Origin: Pseudomonas sp. UBA2684
GTDB lineage: Bacteria > Pseudomonadota > Gammaproteobacteria > Pseudomonadales > Pseudomonadaceae
Length of the DNA stretch: 64,000 nt
Assembly (NCBI GenBank): GCA_002354655.1
Contig: DELY01000034.1
Span: 1 to 64,000 of the forward strand
Direction of reading: 5' to 3'
Shown here: piece after piece, positions 1 through 19,466 of the stretch
Layout: the number at the start of each line of letters is the position of its first letter
How positions within the stretch are numbered: position 1 is the stretch's first letter
The notes under the pieces: model-generated
The model's database searches: none
What the model was told of the DNA's origin: nothing
The model's input: the letters and a program-made list of their open reading frames with translations, nothing else
Position numbers and translations under genes: made by a program

Positions 1-10
1 CAGTTTTCGG

Positions 11-391
11 TCAGCAGCAACAGGCACGCAACTCTTTGGCAAGCAGGGTGACGCTTAGTCGCAGCACAGGATCTTCAATCATATCGATCCAACTATTGGA
101 GACGGGCGCTGCACTGGATTTCCCTATAACCGAGATCAACTTCCATGCCTGGATCAACTCACGGTAATGCGCTCCCGTGGCGTTGACTATGGATTTCTCA
201 CCAGGCACAGATAGACCGCGATCTTGACCAAGAGTAATGATGGTCTTGTAGGAAAAATCCGAAGAGTTGCGCTCATGCAGTAATCGGCACACCTCATTCA
301 ACGCATGTAGGCTGCGTTTGCGGCGTGCATCGCTGGCCTCATGGATCAGTCGCTCGTAGGTTTCCTGTGGTGAAATTAGTTGCTCACTCAT
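11..391 (-). CDS. gmtX: GMT island protein GmtX, 126 aa
   Basis: Third gene of the recombinase trio; its biochemical role is not known to me. The start at 391 is chosen because ATG there overlaps the gmtZ stop by 8 bases (ATGAGTGA), which implies translational coupling. The alternative upstream start at 424 would lie inside gmtZ. The protein looks soluble and mainly helical, with no membrane segment or signal peptide, and ends in three consecutive cysteines. The middle part (SYKTIITLGQDRGLSVPGEK) reads like a small DNA-binding or recombination accessory domain, but that is a guess. The stop codon is at 11-13, so the gene is complete. Identification rests mostly on its position behind gmtZ. 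Confidence 0.7.
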   Translation of the reverse strand: MSEQLISPQETYERLIHEASDARRKRSLHALNEVCRLLHERNSSDFSYKTIITLGQDRGLSVPGEKSIVNATGAHYRELIQAWKLISVIGKSSAAPVSNSWIDMIEDPVLRLSVTLLAKELRACCC

Positions 392-3300
392 AAACCGGAA
401 TCTCCTGAAAAATCTGGTGAGCACTATTTGGGCTAGAAAGGAGCTGCCGAATCTCCGTGGAGATGCGCGTCAACTCGGGTTCATGTGTATCAATATCGAG
501 CAACATCAACTCACCAGAAAAAAGATCATCGATCTTTTCCCAAGAGCCCAGCCGCATGAGCAGAAGCCTATTAAGCTCATTAGCCACAATAATTGTTTGT
601 TCGTGACTGAGCCTAAACATGGCAGGCGGCAAACCATTATTTTCGGCCATCCGGTCGATAGCCTGGGAAATCAGAGGCGCAGCACGAGAGGCATTGGCTG
701 ACTTGTAGATGGCCGCGTTCTGGCAGATTTCGGCAAGCAGGTGATATCCCGTATCTGACTCCTCGTATGCGACACCTATTTCATGCACGTCTCCAGAAAT
801 GATTAGCCTGACGTCACTATCGGAATCAAGATTATTTTGGTTGATCAACTTCAGGCAACTTTGAATATGACCATTGAGGGCGGAGTAGTCCCCTAGCAAA
901 CTGTCAAGCTTTCCAGCACTGCAATGTTGATTGGATACCGCTTGCTTACGTTCCATCTCACGGAGGAATGGCTCGCCGTTCTGACAGGTGTCATAGTGCT
1001 CTTGTTCCAGCTCATCCAACTCTGCCGTATATCTCTGATAGCGGTTACTTTCCGTGGAAATTTCCAGCCCTATTTCATTTGCAAGCGAGACGAGCCCGCC
1101 TAGGAACGGAACACCAGTGATAAAGAATCTACACCTAGGGCAATTCTTCTGGCCGAGATAGCCAGCCTGAACAGGGCTATACAGAGACTCGACTTTCCTC
1201 TCGACAACAACTTCGCCACCCATATAGCAAGCAGCACCTGACATGGGGCAAATGCCACAATCAGATACAACACATGCCGTTCTAGGAACATCAGACTCGA
1301 TAAAAAAACGATTCCCATCCGTCGCAATGAGTTGATCGCGCACGGAGTGAAGCCCACCGAGACTGATCGCCTCAGCGCTACGCTCTGCGGATCGATGTGC
1401 TGCTAGCTTTTCCACCTCATCCATGGGCCGCCGCATTTGCTCGCCGCTCAGCCTTATGTAATAGATTGTCATCACCAACGAGGTGTGTCCGACTAGTTTA
1501 GAGATCAAGTGAATGGGGGCATCACCATCTGCAATGAATGCAGTTATCAAGCTAACGCGCAGACTGTGCGGGGTATACGAACTAACGAATCTATTTTTCT
1601 GACCTTCGCTAACTGTCGCCAAATCCTCATGCACACGCTGAATGCGGTATAGCAAGGCAGGCAATGCGTGCGAGAACGCAGTGGTTGTCTGCAAAACCTG
1701 ATCCACAGCTTCAGTGCGAAACAAGAAACATTGTGTTCCCCGTGCTTTGAGGATTTTTACGTTGGTTTCGGCCCGAAGATTGACGTCAACCCATTCAGTC
1801 GGCTTGGAAATAGGATTGTATTTGGCCTGCCAATCACGCAGTAACAAAAGCCAATACAGGAGATCATCAGGTATCCATTCGACGTCATACCCCCCCTCAG
1901 AACGCCCACTCTTGTTGGTGGTTATATAGAGTTTCGGTATACCCTTGTGACCCTTTTGCACGACAGCCTGAGGGCGACTCTTTTTGCTACCCTTCCCCGC
2001 CAACGGGCCAGTATTCTTTTCCCAGCGAATCGAACCACTGGCATCCAAAATAGCTATTTCGTTATCAGCCTCGCCACTGTCGAGCCACAAAATCTGTTGG
2101 CCTCGCAGCGGAAAACGCAGCAACATGTAGAGAGCAATAAACCGTACAGGCGACCAAATTTGATAAGAATCCATTACTACTCGATTACCGTTGCGATAGC
2201 GATCAGCATTTTTTACTTCGCGCCAAATACAATTCGAGTCACTCCTATCAATTTGCGACTGATCAACGTATATCCAATCAGTACGACTATTAAAGAAGTC
2301 TTGCAGATGCGGTAAGTCCATCAAAGTTGGCCGTGTCTGCAAGGACGCATCGCTGTTAGGCACTAAGAAATTACGCGCACGCAGGATATACTCGTAGCCA
2401 AGTGGAAACTTAGTTGACTGAGAGGGCCGATAATTTTGCAAACTGTCTGAAAATCCAGCAAGCACTGTAACGAAAGGATTTCGAAAATCTGGAAGAACAA
2501 TACGTTCATCACCGTCCTCGTCGGTGCAATCCTCGTCAAGCAACCATTGGAAAAAACCAGTAATAGCGCTGTGATACGGTCTCTGCGTCGACTCTGCCTG
2601 ACTCTCGATCAACTGCGTGTACACAGTGGTATTAAACTTATGGCTTCGCAACAGCGGATATTTGGAGTCGTCTGGTAATTTCAGGGGTTGATAAAAACCA
2701 TTCAACAACACTTTGATAGCAGCTCGTTTAGTCGTGATATTTGTTTGAGTCTTCAGCCAACGCTCAACATCGGCAAGCACTATCGGGTAGTCAGATGAAT
2801 AATCGTTAATTTTGTCTTGACCGAGAAATTCATAATTGTCAGTCCAGCCAGCGTTGGCATAAAGCCTTTGCGGGTCGGCGGGTAGCCTTGGATCTTCTCG
2901 ATAACGTGCTCTGTATTCACCCATGTGTTGAATATTTAGCGCTTGGGCCGCTACTTTGGCCTCGGTGTAAGTGGTGTAACGGTTGGGTTTTTGTCTGCTG
3001 AAAAAATCATAATTACTCACCCAGCCAGCATTATCATAAGTAGCACGGGGATTAGAAGGCAGCATCGGGTCTTCCCGATAGCGTTCTTTGTATTCACCCA
3101 TATATTTAATATCTAACGCCTGGACTGCTGCTTTTGCCTGGGCGTAAGTTGCATACAGGCTGGGCTTCTCCTTACCCAAGAAGTCAAACCAGTCTGTCCA
3201 ACCGGAGTTGATATAGAAACGATGGGGGTTAGAATGCAGTCTTGGATCTTGGTTATAGCGCGCATAGTAGTCGCTGCTATTTTCAATACCCAGTATTTGG

Positions 3301-3884
3301 GCTGCTGCCTGCGCCTCAGCGTAGGTTGCGTACCACTCCGGCTTTTCCTTGCCCAAGAAGTCAAACCAATCTATCCAACCGTTGCTAGCATAGAAAGCCG
3401 ATGGGCTAGCAGGTAGCCTCGGGTCTTGGTGGGAGCATGCAATATAGTTATTGGCCGATCCGATACCTAGCGCTTGGGCCGCCACTTGCGCCTCGGCGTA
3501 AGTGGTATACAGATCAGATTTGTTCTTGCTAAGAAAAACGTACCAGTTTACCCAACCCATGCCAGCATAGGAGGATTGAGGACAGGCAGGCAACCTCGGG
3601 TCTTTCCAATAACGTGCGTTATAGTCGTTAATATCTTCCATACCCAGCGCTAATGCCGCCTCCTGAGCCTCAGCGTAGGTTGTGTACCTGTCAGGTTTGT
3701 CCTTACCCAAAAAATCAAACCAGTCTGTCCAGCCGGCATTGAGATACACACGATGCGGACATGAAGGTAACCTCGTGGCTGTTACATAGCGCACCCTGTA
3801 GTCCTTGACGCTTTCGATACCCAGCGCTTGAACTACCGCCTGCGCCTCGGCGTAGCTGTACAAGTCCACCCTTTTCCCTGGCAT
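384..3884 (-). CDS. gmtZ: GMT recombinase GmtZ, 1166 aa, with six 59-aa repeats
   Basis: Large second recombinase of the island. Residues about 9-360 are six tandem repeats with an exact 59-residue period (YAEAQ at 11, 70, 129, 188; variants at 247, 306), each ending in a GWxDWFDFLGK-like block. They resemble the phage-integrase repeat unit family. A tyrosine recombinase catalytic part follows: first Arg near 594 (FPLRGQQ), HSLR at 773-776, LVGH with His 800, and Tyr 808 or 809. After it comes a cysteine cluster (C871, C876, C879, C886, C915, C918) that probably binds zinc. The start ATG at 3884 overlaps the gmtY stop (TAATG) and has GGGAGG upstream. The repeats probably bind DNA (inference). 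Confidence 0.85.
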   Translation of the reverse strand: MPGKRVDLYSYAEAQAVVQALGIESVKDYRVRYVTATRLPSCPHRVYLNAGWTDWFDFLGKDKPDRYTTYAEAQEAALALGMEDINDYNARYWKDPRLPACPQSSYAGMGWVNWYVFLSKNKSDLYTTYAEAQVAAQALGIGSANNYIACSHQDPRLPASPSAFYASNGWIDWFDFLGKEKPEWYATYAEAQAAAQILGIENSSDYYARYNQDPRLHSNPHRFYINSGWTDWFDFLGKEKPSLYATYAQAKAAVQALDIKYMGEYKERYREDPMLPSNPRATYDNAGWVSNYDFFSRQKPNRYTTYTEAKVAAQALNIQHMGEYRARYREDPRLPADPQRLYANAGWTDNYEFLGQDKINDYSSDYPIVLADVERWLKTQTNITTKRAAIKVLLNGFYQPLKLPDDSKYPLLRSHKFNTTVYTQLIESQAESTQRPYHSAITGFFQWLLDEDCTDEDGDERIVLPDFRNPFVTVLAGFSDSLQNYRPSQSTKFPLGYEYILRARNFLVPNSDASLQTRPTLMDLPHLQDFFNSRTDWIYVDQSQIDRSDSNCIWREVKNADRYRNGNRVVMDSYQIWSPVRFIALYMLLRFPLRGQQILWLDSGEADNEIAILDASGSIRWEKNTGPLAGKGSKKSRPQAVVQKGHKGIPKLYITTNKSGRSEGGYDVEWIPDDLLYWLLLLRDWQAKYNPISKPTEWVDVNLRAETNVKILKARGTQCFLFRTEAVDQVLQTTTAFSHALPALLYRIQRVHEDLATVSEGQKNRFVSSYTPHSLRVSLITAFIADGDAPIHLISKLVGHTSLVMTIYYIRLSGEQMRRPMDEVEKLAAHRSAERSAEAISLGGLHSVRDQLIATDGNRFFIESDVPRTACVVSDCGICPMSGAACYMGGEVVVERKVESLYSPVQAGYLGQKNCPRCRFFITGVPFLGGLVSLANEIGLEISTESNRYQRYTAELDELEQEHYDTCQNGEPFLREMERKQAVSNQHCSAGKLDSLLGDYSALNGHIQSCLKLINQNNLDSDSDVRLIISGDVHEIGVAYEESDTGYHLLAEICQNAAIYKSANASRAAPLISQAIDRMAENNGLPPAMFRLSHEQTIIVANELNRLLLMRLGSWEKIDDLFSGELMLLDIDTHEPELTRISTEIRQLLSSPNSAHQIFQEIPVYE

Positions 3885-5272
3885 TATTTTTCCTCCCTGC
3901 CAAGTTGCAGTACTTCGACATTTGCGTGTTGCTCAGAAAGTCGCGACTCCATTTCAATCATACGACTGCGAAAATCCGTTGAGGTCGGCACCGTATAAGT
4001 CTGGCTCGATTCAATCGATTTGTGATGCATCGCGGTTTTGATACTGATCGCCGGGGCTCCAGCTGCTGACATGCGTTGGCCATAGGCATGTCGATGACCA
4101 TGCGGCGTCGTGCCCTGAAGCTTTCCGTACTCTAGACCAATTCGTTCTACTGCTAGCTGGTGAGCCTTGCGGAACATGCGATGCGAGTACGGTCGACCAT
4201 TGCGGCTAGTAAATGCATAAGGGTGCTGGTCGCACATTGCTGGCTTTACCCGCTGTATCAGGTGGTAGTCGCGCCACAGCCGAGCAAACGTCTGCCCGGC
4301 AAAATGGGGAAAAAAAAAGACTTCAAAACACTTACGAATTGGATCGGTAAGTAGTGCGTCTTTCCAGCCAAGGAACAGAGGGTCGATAGCTTTTACCAAA
4401 CGATTGCGCGGCAGCATTCCAAAGCGTTTTTGCAGGTACGAAGCTCGATTAGTTTTTCCGTCCGGGGCGAGCCCGTACTCCGGATGATATACACGGACGA
4501 TCACTTCTCCATTCTCAAGCGTCACATCATCACTCCAAAGTGAAAGCGCTTCAGATAGCCGTAAACTGCCGTAGTGCATAAGCAACGTAATAAGAACATT
4601 GCGAAGATCTATTGGGCCGCGCCGGTCTCTCGCAATCCTGCGGAAGCCCTCAGTGAACAACAGATTGAGCTTTTCTACTGGGAATGTTTTTGCGGGAGTA
4701 AGATCATCAATAGGCAACCCTTGGGAGCGCACCACCCTAGATTGATCGGTCTGTGGCGCTCGGCGAAACAGGTGAGAGAGAAAGGCGTTGTCTCTCCGAT
4801 GCGAGTAAGCAGCCCAATTCAACCGCTGCTCATGCCGAGTCGCGTTCCTCCATGGGTTGAGTTGGAGGTCGGTATCTTCATTGATCGCTGAAAGCCAGTC
4901 CGTAAATCGAGTGATGTGGCCGATCAGCTTACTGGCATCATCAGGCTGCCTTGGCTGCCAATAAAGCCCTGACGGATCACGCCCCCCTCCACTCGTGCCG
5001 GTATAAAGAGCATTTGAAAACGACGTAAATAGCTCCCTCGGCTTTTCGAAGAAACCTTGATTCGCCTCCATGAATTCGAGCAGCAATTGAATCGCAAAAG
5101 TTGCAGCATCTTGCCATGAGCGACTTTTGCGCCGATTCAAATACATATAACGGACAAACTGATCAAGCACTCCATGCTCAGTAACTACGACAGGCAAAAC
5201 ATCTTGCATACCAGTCGCGTCGCCGATGATCGTTCTGTACTCGCGATGGGATGATTCGAAGAAGGTTTTCAT
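3884..5272 (-). CDS. gmtY: GMT tyrosine recombinase GmtY, 462 aa
   Basis: First gene of the trio and nearest the island end, as usual for integrases. The catalytic residues of tyrosine recombinases are visible: Arg 238 in GSLRLSE, His 391 and Arg 394 in PHGHRHAYG, His 416/417 in AMHHKS, and the nucleophile Tyr 426 in SSQTYT. Residues 30-180 would be the core-binding domain. It most likely cuts and joins the island ends together with GmtZ (family knowledge plus context). The gene is intact, so the island may still be mobile. No clear promoter is visible in the 165 bases upstream. Confidence 0.88.
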   Translation of the reverse strand: MKTFFESSHREYRTIIGDATGMQDVLPVVVTEHGVLDQFVRYMYLNRRKSRSWQDAATFAIQLLLEFMEANQGFFEKPRELFTSFSNALYTGTSGGGRDPSGLYWQPRQPDDASKLIGHITRFTDWLSAINEDTDLQLNPWRNATRHEQRLNWAAYSHRRDNAFLSHLFRRAPQTDQSRVVRSQGLPIDDLTPAKTFPVEKLNLLFTEGFRRIARDRRGPIDLRNVLITLLMHYGSLRLSEALSLWSDDVTLENGEVIVRVYHPEYGLAPDGKTNRASYLQKRFGMLPRNRLVKAIDPLFLGWKDALLTDPIRKCFEVFFFPHFAGQTFARLWRDYHLIQRVKPAMCDQHPYAFTSRNGRPYSHRMFRKAHQLAVERIGLEYGKLQGTTPHGHRHAYGQRMSAAGAPAISIKTAMHHKSIESSQTYTVPTSTDFRSRMIEMESRLSEQHANVEVLQLGREEK

Positions 5273-5437
5273 CGAGCTGCACCAAAAAATTGGGGACTAC
5301 CTGTACCGTTCAGGGGTAACTCTAGTAGTAAAAAATGCGTGCAGAAGATTATTTTTGCTGAGATTTCTATTTTCTACGGCATAGGGAGGAAATTCAGAGG
5401 GGCTTTCACGATAGTTTAGGAGTCAAATCAGGGGTAA
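5273..5437. other. Non-coding island end upstream of gmtY
   Basis: This AT-rich stretch between the gmtY start and the island boundary holds no gene. It contains both copies of a 12-bp direct repeat (the second runs two bases past its end) and, at 5301-5307, CTGTACC. That heptamer is the reverse complement of GGTACAG at 5450-5456 in the split target gene. It should contain the recombinase attachment arms and the promoter of the trio, but I cannot point to a convincing -35/-10 pair. Confidence 0.6.
5310..5321. repeat. 12-bp direct repeat at island end, copy 1
   Basis: TCAGGGGTAACT; an identical copy lies at 5428-5439, 118 bases further on and touching the island boundary. Candidate recombinase-binding repeat (inference). 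Confidence 0.6.
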
Positions 5438-5439
5438 CT
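5428..5439. repeat. 12-bp direct repeat at island end, copy 2
   Basis: TCAGGGGTAACT, identical to 5310-5321. It abuts the last intact codon of the interrupted radical SAM gene and supplies the stop codon that ends the fragment. Confidence 0.6.
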
Positions 5440-5557
5440 AATCACAGAAGGTACAGTGGTTCCAGGAACAGCCGTTGGTCACCGGCAGGATCAGCGAATG
5501 CGCCTCGCTCGGCGGGCGGAAGACCGGCTCGATATAGGCAATGGGAAACTCACTCAC
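5438..5557 (-). pseudogene. 5' fragment of a radical SAM enzyme gene, split by the island
   Basis: A GTG start at 5557, with GGAGGA about 10 bases upstream, opens a frame of 39 codons that ends in TAG at 5438-5440. The peptide reads [13 protein letters not shown], then [17 protein letters not shown]. The cysteines form the iron-sulfur/SAM motif (here C-x4-C-x2-C), and the frame is lost directly after C-D. Related full-length proteins continue with MYT-type residues after this point, as I recall, so nearly all of the enzyme is missing here. The start lies just behind the moaA stop, so the two genes were once coupled. The remaining coding part should be at the other island end, outside the window. 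Confidence 0.8.
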
Positions 5558-5564
5558 GGGGCCG

Positions 5565-6533
5565 TCATCCTCCAATGATCTTCATGACGGTCACCCCGCC
5601 GGAGAAGGCAACGTCCTGCTTGTCGCCGAGCGCCTTGACCAACAAGCGCTGCAAGGCCGGCAAGGCCTGATGACGCGGTTTATCGAGCAAGTCGCCGACA
5701 TAATGGCGGTTGCTTGACGATAGACAACCATGCAACCAACCGGTCGACGACAAGCGCAAACGTGAACAGGTACGGCAGAACGGCACGCTTTCATTGGCGA
5801 TCACGCCGAAAAACCCCTGCTGCGGAATCTCATAGCGCAGCGCGGTGGCATCCAGCGGCGCATCGGCCTGGGCAAAGCTGTAGCGCTCGCCAATCATGCT
5901 CAACAGTTCGGGCATGCCGACGAACTGCTGCAGGAAGCTGTTGCCGTCGCGTGCCAGGTGACCCATGCGCATCAACTCGATAAAGCGCAACTCGAAGCCA
6001 CGCTCCAGGCAATAGTCGAGCAACGGCAGCACCTGATTGAGGTTCTGCCCACGCAACGGCACCATATTGAGTTTGATCTTCAATCCCGCCGCGCGGGCCT
6101 CTTCCAGCCCAGCCAAGACACTGGCCAAATCGCCACCCCGCGCAATCACACGAAACGCATTGGTATCGAGGGTGTCCAGGGAAACGTTGAGACGGCGGAT
6201 GCCGCTTTCCAGCAGCAGCGGTAGCTTGCGCGAGAGCAATTGACCGTTGGTGGTCAGGCTGATCTCGGCCAAACCCAATCGACCGACCTCACGCAGAAAC
6301 ACATCGAGTTTCGGGCTGACCAGCGGTTCGCCGCCGGTGATACGCAGACGTTCGATACCGGCGGCTTCGATCAGGTAGGCCACGCCACGCACCATGGCTT
6401 CGGCGGAGAGTTCATCCTGCGCCGCGACCAAACGCTTACCGTCCGGCACGCAGTAGGTGCAGGCGTAATTGCAGGCAGCGGTCAGGCTGATGCGCAGGTT
6501 ACGAAAACGTCTGCCTTGGCGGTCGACGATCAT
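5565..6533 (-). CDS. moaA: GTP 3',8-cyclase MoaA (molybdenum cofactor synthesis), 322 aa
   Basis: Radical SAM enzyme that, with MoaC, converts GTP to cyclic pyranopterin monophosphate, the first step of molybdopterin synthesis. The N-terminal cluster motif is CNYACTYC (C21, C25, C28). The second cluster is seen in [19 protein letters not shown], and the chain ends in the typical GG. The start at 6533 ([10 protein letters not shown]) is preferred over the ATG at 6575 because GGAG lies 6 bases ahead and it matches the family start. It follows a TetR gene and is followed by the split radical SAM gene. The usual moa genes are not adjacent, so this may be one of several moaA copies. Confidence 0.93.
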
Positions 6534-6623
6534 GGAAAGCTCCGGCGAGTGATAGCTCGGAGTATATCGCTGCAACCGGTCTCAGCACATGCGCGGCACG
6601 TGCTATAGACCGGCTGAATAGGG

Positions 6624-18887: not shown

Positions 18888-19466
18888 ATGCTGCCATTGG
18901 TACTCGCATCCAGCTCACCTTACCGACGCGAACTGCTGGCCCGCCTGCAACGCCCATTCAGTTGTAGCACGCCAGCCATCGACGAAACCCGCCATCCGGA
19001 CGAGGACGCCGCAACGCTGGTCCAGCGCCTGGCTCGGGAAAAGGCACAGGCACTGCAAAACAGCCATCCACGGCATCTGATTATCGGCTCCGATCAAGTT
19101 GCCGTGCTTGACGGCCAGATTCTTGGCAAGCCCCACACCTTTGAGCGCGCCCGCGATCAGTTGCTTGCCGCCAGCGGCAAAAGCGTTATTTTCTTGACCG
19201 GCCTAGCGCTACTCAATAGCGAGAACCACCACTGCCAGGTCGATTGCATTTCATTTACGGTACATTTTCGCCCGCTGAGCGAGGCGCAAATAACCCGCTA
19301 CCTGCACGCAGAGCAACCGTACGACTGCGCTGGAAGCTTCAAAGCCGAAGGCCTCGGCGTCAGCTTATTCCGCAGCACACAAGGCGCCGACGCCAGCAGC
19401 CTAATCGGCCTACCACTGATCCGCCTGGTAGACATGTTGCATAACGCAGGCGTGGAAATCCCCTAA
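18888..19466 (+). CDS. Maf-type nucleotide pyrophosphatase, 192 aa
   Basis: House-cleaning enzyme that hydrolyses unusual nucleoside triphosphates. The start LVLASSSPYRRELLARL is the Maf signature, IIGSDQVAVLDG carries the catalytic acid, and CAGSFKAEGLG is conserved. The sequence looks like the YceF-type (7-methyl-GTP) branch, but that assignment is not certain. AAGGAAG precedes the ATG. It is divergent from yceD and convergent with sppA. Confidence 0.92.
   Translation: MLPLVLASSSPYRRELLARLQRPFSCSTPAIDETRHPDEDAATLVQRLAREKAQALQNSHPRHLIIGSDQVAVLDGQILGKPHTFERARDQLLAASGKSVIFLTGLALLNSENHHCQVDCISFTVHFRPLSEAQITRYLHAEQPYDCAGSFKAEGLGVSLFRSTQGADASSLIGLPLIRLVDMLHNAGVEIP

Follow-up and report, generated by a model that had tools for sequence, protein, structure and literature searches.

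The 64,000 bp analysed here (the window) are bases 1-64000 of contig C56 (106,166 bp; window base 1 is C56 base 1) in the 59-contig genome of Pseudomonas sp. UBA2684. We read window 1-5441 as the recombinase end of a site-specifically inserted gamma-mobile-trio (GMT) island, with its gmtX gene cut, a mode of movement like that of the SE elements and a copy that is most likely immobile; we put the probability of this reading at about 0.78. The island end and its junction with the host gene comprise the following features (C, G and L numbers denote our contigs, genomes and loci):

1-22, minus strand: terminal inverted repeat of an IS21-family insertion sequence (IS) at the contig edge, which gives the shortened gmtX its last codons and stop
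11-424, minus strand: gmtX-like open reading frame (ORF) of the ORF listing, 137 amino acids (aa) from GTG 424 or 126 aa from ATG 391
11-391, minus strand: truncated gmtX, as judged by the part of the family model that it matches, alignment with relatives and 37 of 38 loci compared
384-3884, minus strand: gmtZ, large tyrosine recombinase, 1166 aa
2808-3866, minus strand: INT_rpt array in the GmtZ N-terminus, six tandem units of ~59 aa (PF14882 in six stretches; profile count 6)
3884-5272, minus strand: gmtY, tyrosine recombinase, 462 aa
5313-5323, minus strand: the end motif a second time, AGAGTTACCCC, as a subterminal copy ~118 bp inward from the terminus
5431-5441, minus strand: gmtY-side terminus, TTAGTTACCCC, with an inverted copy at the far end on contig C5
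5442-5447, minus strand: six-base target footprint CTGTGA, the host gene's native sequence
5442-5557, minus strand: 5′ remnant of the split radical-SAM gene, comprising 38 codons plus two bases, with a frame that stops just inside the island

The three mobility genes lie side by side at one island end, as indicated by their order and overlaps and by the position of the two ends (5441 in the window, the far end on C5). The GC content of the island part (23-5441) is 49%, compared with 60% in 5448-64000. The gmtY stop codon and the gmtZ ATG share base 3884, and gmtZ overlaps gmtX by the eight bases ATGAGTGA (384-391), provided that gmtX starts at ATG 391; with this start the overlaps of 1 and 8 bases given in the first-pass annotation are borne out. 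The GMT identity, which that annotation had taken from family knowledge, also held, and matches rather than their absence were the outcome of the search against family models that it had proposed. GmtY scored 482.5 bits with NCBIfam NF040693 (cut-off 340) and GmtX 110.9 bits with NF040692 (cut-off 40), the latter over model positions 2-120 of 207 only. GmtZ matched positions 22-784 of NF047926 with 596.3 bits (E 7.5e-179), formally just under the cut-off of 600; its close relatives in L063, L065, L066 and L067 scored 602-622 bits. GmtZ also has a Pfam match to PF13009.

Both recombinases keep the R, HxxR, H and Y residues, as had been claimed from the single sequences. GmtZ residues R594, H773, R776, H800 and Y809 are the same in all 39 aligned proteins, an alignment that leaves out L081 (no GmtZ C-terminus) and L106, L108 and L110 (duplicates of L077, L076 and L073, respectively). 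In GmtY, R238, H391, R394 and Y426 are invariant in all 36 aligned proteins, and H416 and H417 are each present in 35 of the 36.

A GmtZ match was found at 39 distinct loci, and 35 of these have a GmtY match as well. Of the four without one, two (L077 and L079) begin at the edge of a contig, a third (L076) has 1.6 kb before the match, and the fourth (L081) has 5.3 kb before the GmtZ match, without gmtY. A GmtX profile match follows GmtZ in 37 of the 38 loci that have the GmtZ end. The possibility raised at the outset, that gmtX-like proteins occur mainly without the two recombinases, was viewed from the GmtZ side only; from this side the trio is together in most loci. In a sample of 398 genomes of the genus, 29 had a GmtZ match at E 1e-60 or better and 26 a match over the cut-off. 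Among 72,556 plasmids, 128 carried a GmtZ relative at E 1e-30, all below 60% identity, and four of these cover at least 80% of GmtZ.

The gmtY-side end of the island is recognizable in relatives. The motif TTAGTTAYCC stands at the junctions of L071, L072, L073, L074, L075, L121, L122, L123 and L127. Seven junctions were inspected for the subterminal copy: GTTACCCC is present in L073, L074 and L075, a variant, TTTACCCC, in L072 and a weaker copy in L071, and none was found in L123. Outward of the motif the window continues with six host bases and the radical-SAM remnant, which is 85% identical to residues 2-40 of an intact homologue. Empty sites in L010, L012 and L014 read TTTTGCGAAATG, TTCTGCGAGATG and TTTTGCGAGATG, respectively, and in G014 and G028 (L010 and L014) the uninterrupted radical-SAM gene stands beside the same moaA-like gene. 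The island end that had been placed near 5440 is therefore real, and the island is, by sequence comparison, inserted site-specifically in the CxxxCxxC codons of the radical-SAM gene adjoining the moaA-like gene.

The only other match to the radical-SAM gene in this genome is its 3′ half on C5; no second copy was found beyond the two halves. A match of residues 12-39 on C5 was taken as alignment drift, the true identity beginning at the EMYT motif. The neighbouring MoaA-like gene (window 5565-6575) scored 258.5 bits against a MoaA cut-off of 284 and may be a paralogue of other function.

The far end of the island lies on C5 (62,707 bp), just before the 3′ part of the radical-SAM gene, and reads GGGTTAACTAA-GACCGA-AATGTATACC. 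It is an inverted copy of the gmtY-side end followed by six foreign bases, GACCGA, so that the element ends in inverted motifs, TTAGTTACCCC on one side and GGGTTAACTAA on the other. From this end ~1.7 kb of island with a GC content of 47% extend to the edge of C5 and encode a 157-aa helix-turn-helix (HTH) protein, a 143-aa orphan and a 132-aa DUF6957 protein. PADLOC gave no match with the trio and, with the C5 cargo, only weak HTH-level matches of 30.5 bits and below, with no clear defence gene. The first-pass annotation had expected defence or toxin cargo immediately left of the window: cargo does exist, but on C5 and not on C56, and in its 1.7 kb no defence or toxin gene was recognized.

In some relatives the trio is accompanied by two further genes. 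Tblastn detected relatives of a VPA1267-family protein and a RecD2-like helicase after gmtX in L073, L075, L080, L085 and L086, and before gmtY in L082. Pfam was run on both accessory proteins of L075 and L080, and NCBIfam on both proteins of L075 and on the L080 helicase. The two may be further parts of the machinery or defence cargo. In the present genome the helicase search yielded just two matches, both weak and both in a 624-aa frame on C30.

Site choice was compared in the lineage defined by a GmtZ at least 63% identical, to which the Oceanospirillum island L080 (41%) was added; 12 of these islands have a readable gmtY-side junction. Eleven occupy the same radical-SAM codon: the island of the window, L071, L072, L074, L075, L078, L080 and those in the genomes of L076, L077, L079 and L109. 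For L076, L077 and L079, the contig with the junction is not the one with gmtZ. The twelfth island, L073 (P. arsenicoxydans), sits elsewhere; the genome of L073 gave no match to the radical-SAM protein, and the other eight of the nine genomes searched did. The GmtZ match of L078 (8397-10001; P. oleovorans DSM 1045) is split by ~1.6 kb, and in this copy both GmtZ and the gmtY-side junction look damaged.

The repeat array of GmtZ was considered as a determinant of the target and rejected. At the one radical-SAM site the number of INT_rpt units is 6 in the window, 8 in L071, 6 in L072, 5 in L074, 7 in L109 and 7 in L080. Since it varies from 5 to 8 at the same site, the length of the array does not set the site. 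L073, at its other site, has 11 units, and in some lineages no units are detectable. L075-L079 are not part of this comparison because the N-terminus is cut, split or late-starting in the chosen ORF. Sequence searches with the repeats against solved structures returned one match each, with E values of 0.6 and 0.41 only.

The six bases flanking the two ends follow different rules. On the gmtY side they are native (YTGYGA) in 10 of the 11 islands at the radical-SAM codon, L078 having a 9-nt deletion there. Far ends with the same end motif were read in 10 islands as TAACTA-N-six bases-RATGTAYAC, a count that leaves out G702 (gmt genes not found), L080 (different end motif) and G487 (a scar). Here the six bases are foreign in nine of the 10, with eight different sequences: GACCGA in this genome, CGCAGA, GTTCAA, GCCCGA, CGACCA twice, TGACCA, TGGTTG and AGACGA. 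They are native once, in L075, where both ends read CTGTGA. In the island of L109, an intact relative, the two ends differ, with CTGCGA on the gmtY side and TGACCA on the far side. A search for the far-end pattern in the 398 genomes found seven genomes, compared with one for a reversed control pattern; five of the seven matches carry the spacer of known islands (this genome included), one is G702 and one the G487 scar. For the L073 island no matching far-end motif was found in L110 or the following 60 kb.

The G487 scar (L152 ~19199-19320) is a frameshifting one in a radical-SAM gene, and no gmt gene was found with it; an island of this type seems to have been lost here, leaving its far end joined to the 5′ part of the gene.

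A second lineage, with a GmtZ ~32% identical, occupies in G260 and G295 a gene that we take to be of the greB type. Its gmtY-side bases are AGGTGT, presumably native, and its far ends, which were located via the split gene, have GCTCCC and GCTTGT. The inverted end motif was not found for this lineage in the 10-11 kb downstream. Each of the two islands carries a whole GreB-like gene (reverse complement of L157 8611-9084 and of L161 3732-4301), possibly as a stand-in for the broken host gene.

Native bases beside gmtY and foreign bases at the far end are the rule of the SE elements, and from this we infer that GMT islands probably move in the same way. In such a route both end motifs would be bound by GmtY and GmtZ, with strand exchange across an overlap of six bases. 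The junctions suggest that the exchange would be strand-biased, with gmtY in the place of intA, and the circular intermediate would carry the six bases of the previous site, which would come to lie at the far end upon integration, as in SE elements. Formation of the circle, a donor site that stays occupied and a need for GmtX are likewise parts that we infer.

Coupling sequences of Tn916 are about six bases long. An ordinary exchange of the Tn916 or lambda type, with a heteroduplex overlap, would leave the native bases at either end of the island; the available passages of PMC10214605 do mention Tn916 excision with a heteroduplex spacer. We consider this mechanism unlikely, because the native bases are on the gmtY side in 10 of 10 radical-SAM islands with an undeleted junction and on the far side in L075 alone, an island with native bases at both ends, and because the same passages describe the same end bias for the SE elements.

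In the nine close relatives (GmtZ 63-70% identical) GmtX has 210-218 aa in eight and 192 aa in L079, and these proteins align with the 137-aa ORF of the window through A134. More widely, a GmtX of 192-316 aa directly follows GmtZ in 37 of 38 loci in the profile search, L093 being the exception (L081 and the duplicates L106, L108 and L110 were not counted). The gmtX frame of the window ends in GCC-TGT-TGC-TGC-TGA, and everything after GCC lies inside the 22-bp sequence at window 1-22. This sequence is identical to bases 1-22 of C26 in the same genome, and the two contigs diverge beyond it. With up to two mismatches it occurs in 115 of the 398 genus genomes, often near contig edges, and in L132 it is followed by a protein that matches the IS21 transposase model NF033546 with 327 bits. 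Because the frame ends inside a shared IS end and the model match breaks off at position 120 of 207, gmtX is not complete: the IS21-family end cuts it, and the C-terminal part is lost. The statement that all three mobility genes are intact therefore does not stand, the 126-aa product comparing with 192-316 aa in relatives. On C26 a second stretch of lower GC (C26:1-4000, L038) begins at the same IS21-family end, and a protein encoded there resembles, by eye, the DUF6957 cargo protein of C5.

The edge of C5 carries a 22-bp sequence that faces opposite to that of the window and shares 17 of 22 bases with it, the degree of likeness expected of imperfect IS ends. This suggests that C5 and C56, two separate contigs in the assembly, adjoin across an IS. 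No short duplication common to the C5 and C56 flanks was seen by eye, which points either to a deletion after IS insertion or to further missing pieces.

We judge it quite improbable that the truncation is an assembly artefact in which an IS end was wrongly joined to gmtX. The junction does lie 22 bp from a contig edge, and the flanks lack a matching short duplication, but C5 too ends in the opposite-facing 22-bp sequence, and a search of the whole assembly for GmtX or its C-terminus added a single match, of 11.4 bits to model positions 125-173, which falls inside a 498-aa frame on C37. That the island is intact and mobile with a naturally short gmtX can hardly be upheld, for although a start-to-stop gmtX ORF with the 8-base overlap exists and both recombinases retain their catalytic residues, the frame stops in the repeated IS end common to C26, 37 of 38 loci have a GmtX of at least 192 aa and the match to the model ends prematurely.

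With gmtX cut and the two ends seemingly separated by an IS without a matching target duplication, this copy has most likely lost its mobility. Another copy could conceivably help in trans; against this, the genome contains just two further matches to the GmtZ model, both of 18 bits (E 7e-4), as other tyrosine recombinases would give.

Several observations weigh against our reading of the island and its movement. GmtZ falls short of its model cut-off by 3.7 bits, its repeat number gives no explanation of site choice, and the C5-C56 link is indirect. The evidence for a block of six bases comes from 10 far ends in one lineage and two in another. The foreign spacers match CTGYGA at two to three of the six places and the last base is A in nine of 10, so the block may have five, six or seven bases. 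The Oceanospirillum island L080 occupies the same codon with a different end motif. Finally, G702 has a far end of this type (L150 19200-19260, spacer CCGGCA) with no gmt genes within 39 kb upstream, which may be a very long island, a rearrangement or a remnant.

An extension to the whole class is more tentative, and we give it slightly less than even chances: GMT islands would move by the strand-biased, copy-out-like route of SE elements and Tn554, each far end bearing the six bases of the previous home, and the present lineage would have specialized, across several genera, on one codon of a conserved radical-SAM iron-sulphur motif, with another site used if the gene is absent and with a GmtZ repeat array free in length.

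The junction rule is a prediction from sequence only that one polymerase chain reaction (PCR) assay can test. It finds the far ends of islands that are split over contigs, and the six far-end bases record the possible origin of each copy. For the locus itself the result is a correction: the copy first read as intact is damaged.

The founding paper on GMT islands is reportedly that of Mahata et al. 2024. The island resembles the GMT islands in its gmtY-gmtZ-gmtX order, in matching all three family models and, in some relatives, in the VPA1267-family protein and RecD2-like helicase after gmtX. It differs in the truncated gmtX, in a GmtZ just under the cut-off and in a remaining part without recognized defence or toxin cargo, whereas GMT islands are presented in the available passages of PMC12039261 as mobile armouries equipped with antibacterial toxins and systems against phages. 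The literature passages covered contain no description of the integration mode of GMT islands, which appear there as a citation or as cargo carriers.

The closest parallel in movement is provided by the SE elements of Idola et al. (PMC10214605). As described in the passages available, these have inverted ends, a circle with a six-base spacer, which insertion transfers to the far end, and target bases that come to stand next to the end with intA, and they are likened to Tn554, with one ordinary recombinase, one large recombinase and a small protein. Shared with them are two catalytic tyrosine recombinases, imperfect inverted ends, target specificity and, in this island and its lineage, six native bases at the recombinase end and six foreign ones at the far end. 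The gene sets, compared by description, differ: intA-tfp-intB-srap, four genes, in SE elements, and three genes matching GMT models here. Tn554, again compared by its description in the same source, is a Firmicute element, unlike the present one. With the GInts, as far as the available passages of PMC5385486 describe them, the island has in common a recombinase operon at one end, cargo and site-specific insertion; unlike it, GInts have ginABCD, which encodes a small protein besides three integrase-like ones, each of the four being described there as essential (again a comparison by description). Placed among these systems, the island is another GMT member, with a useful junction signature.

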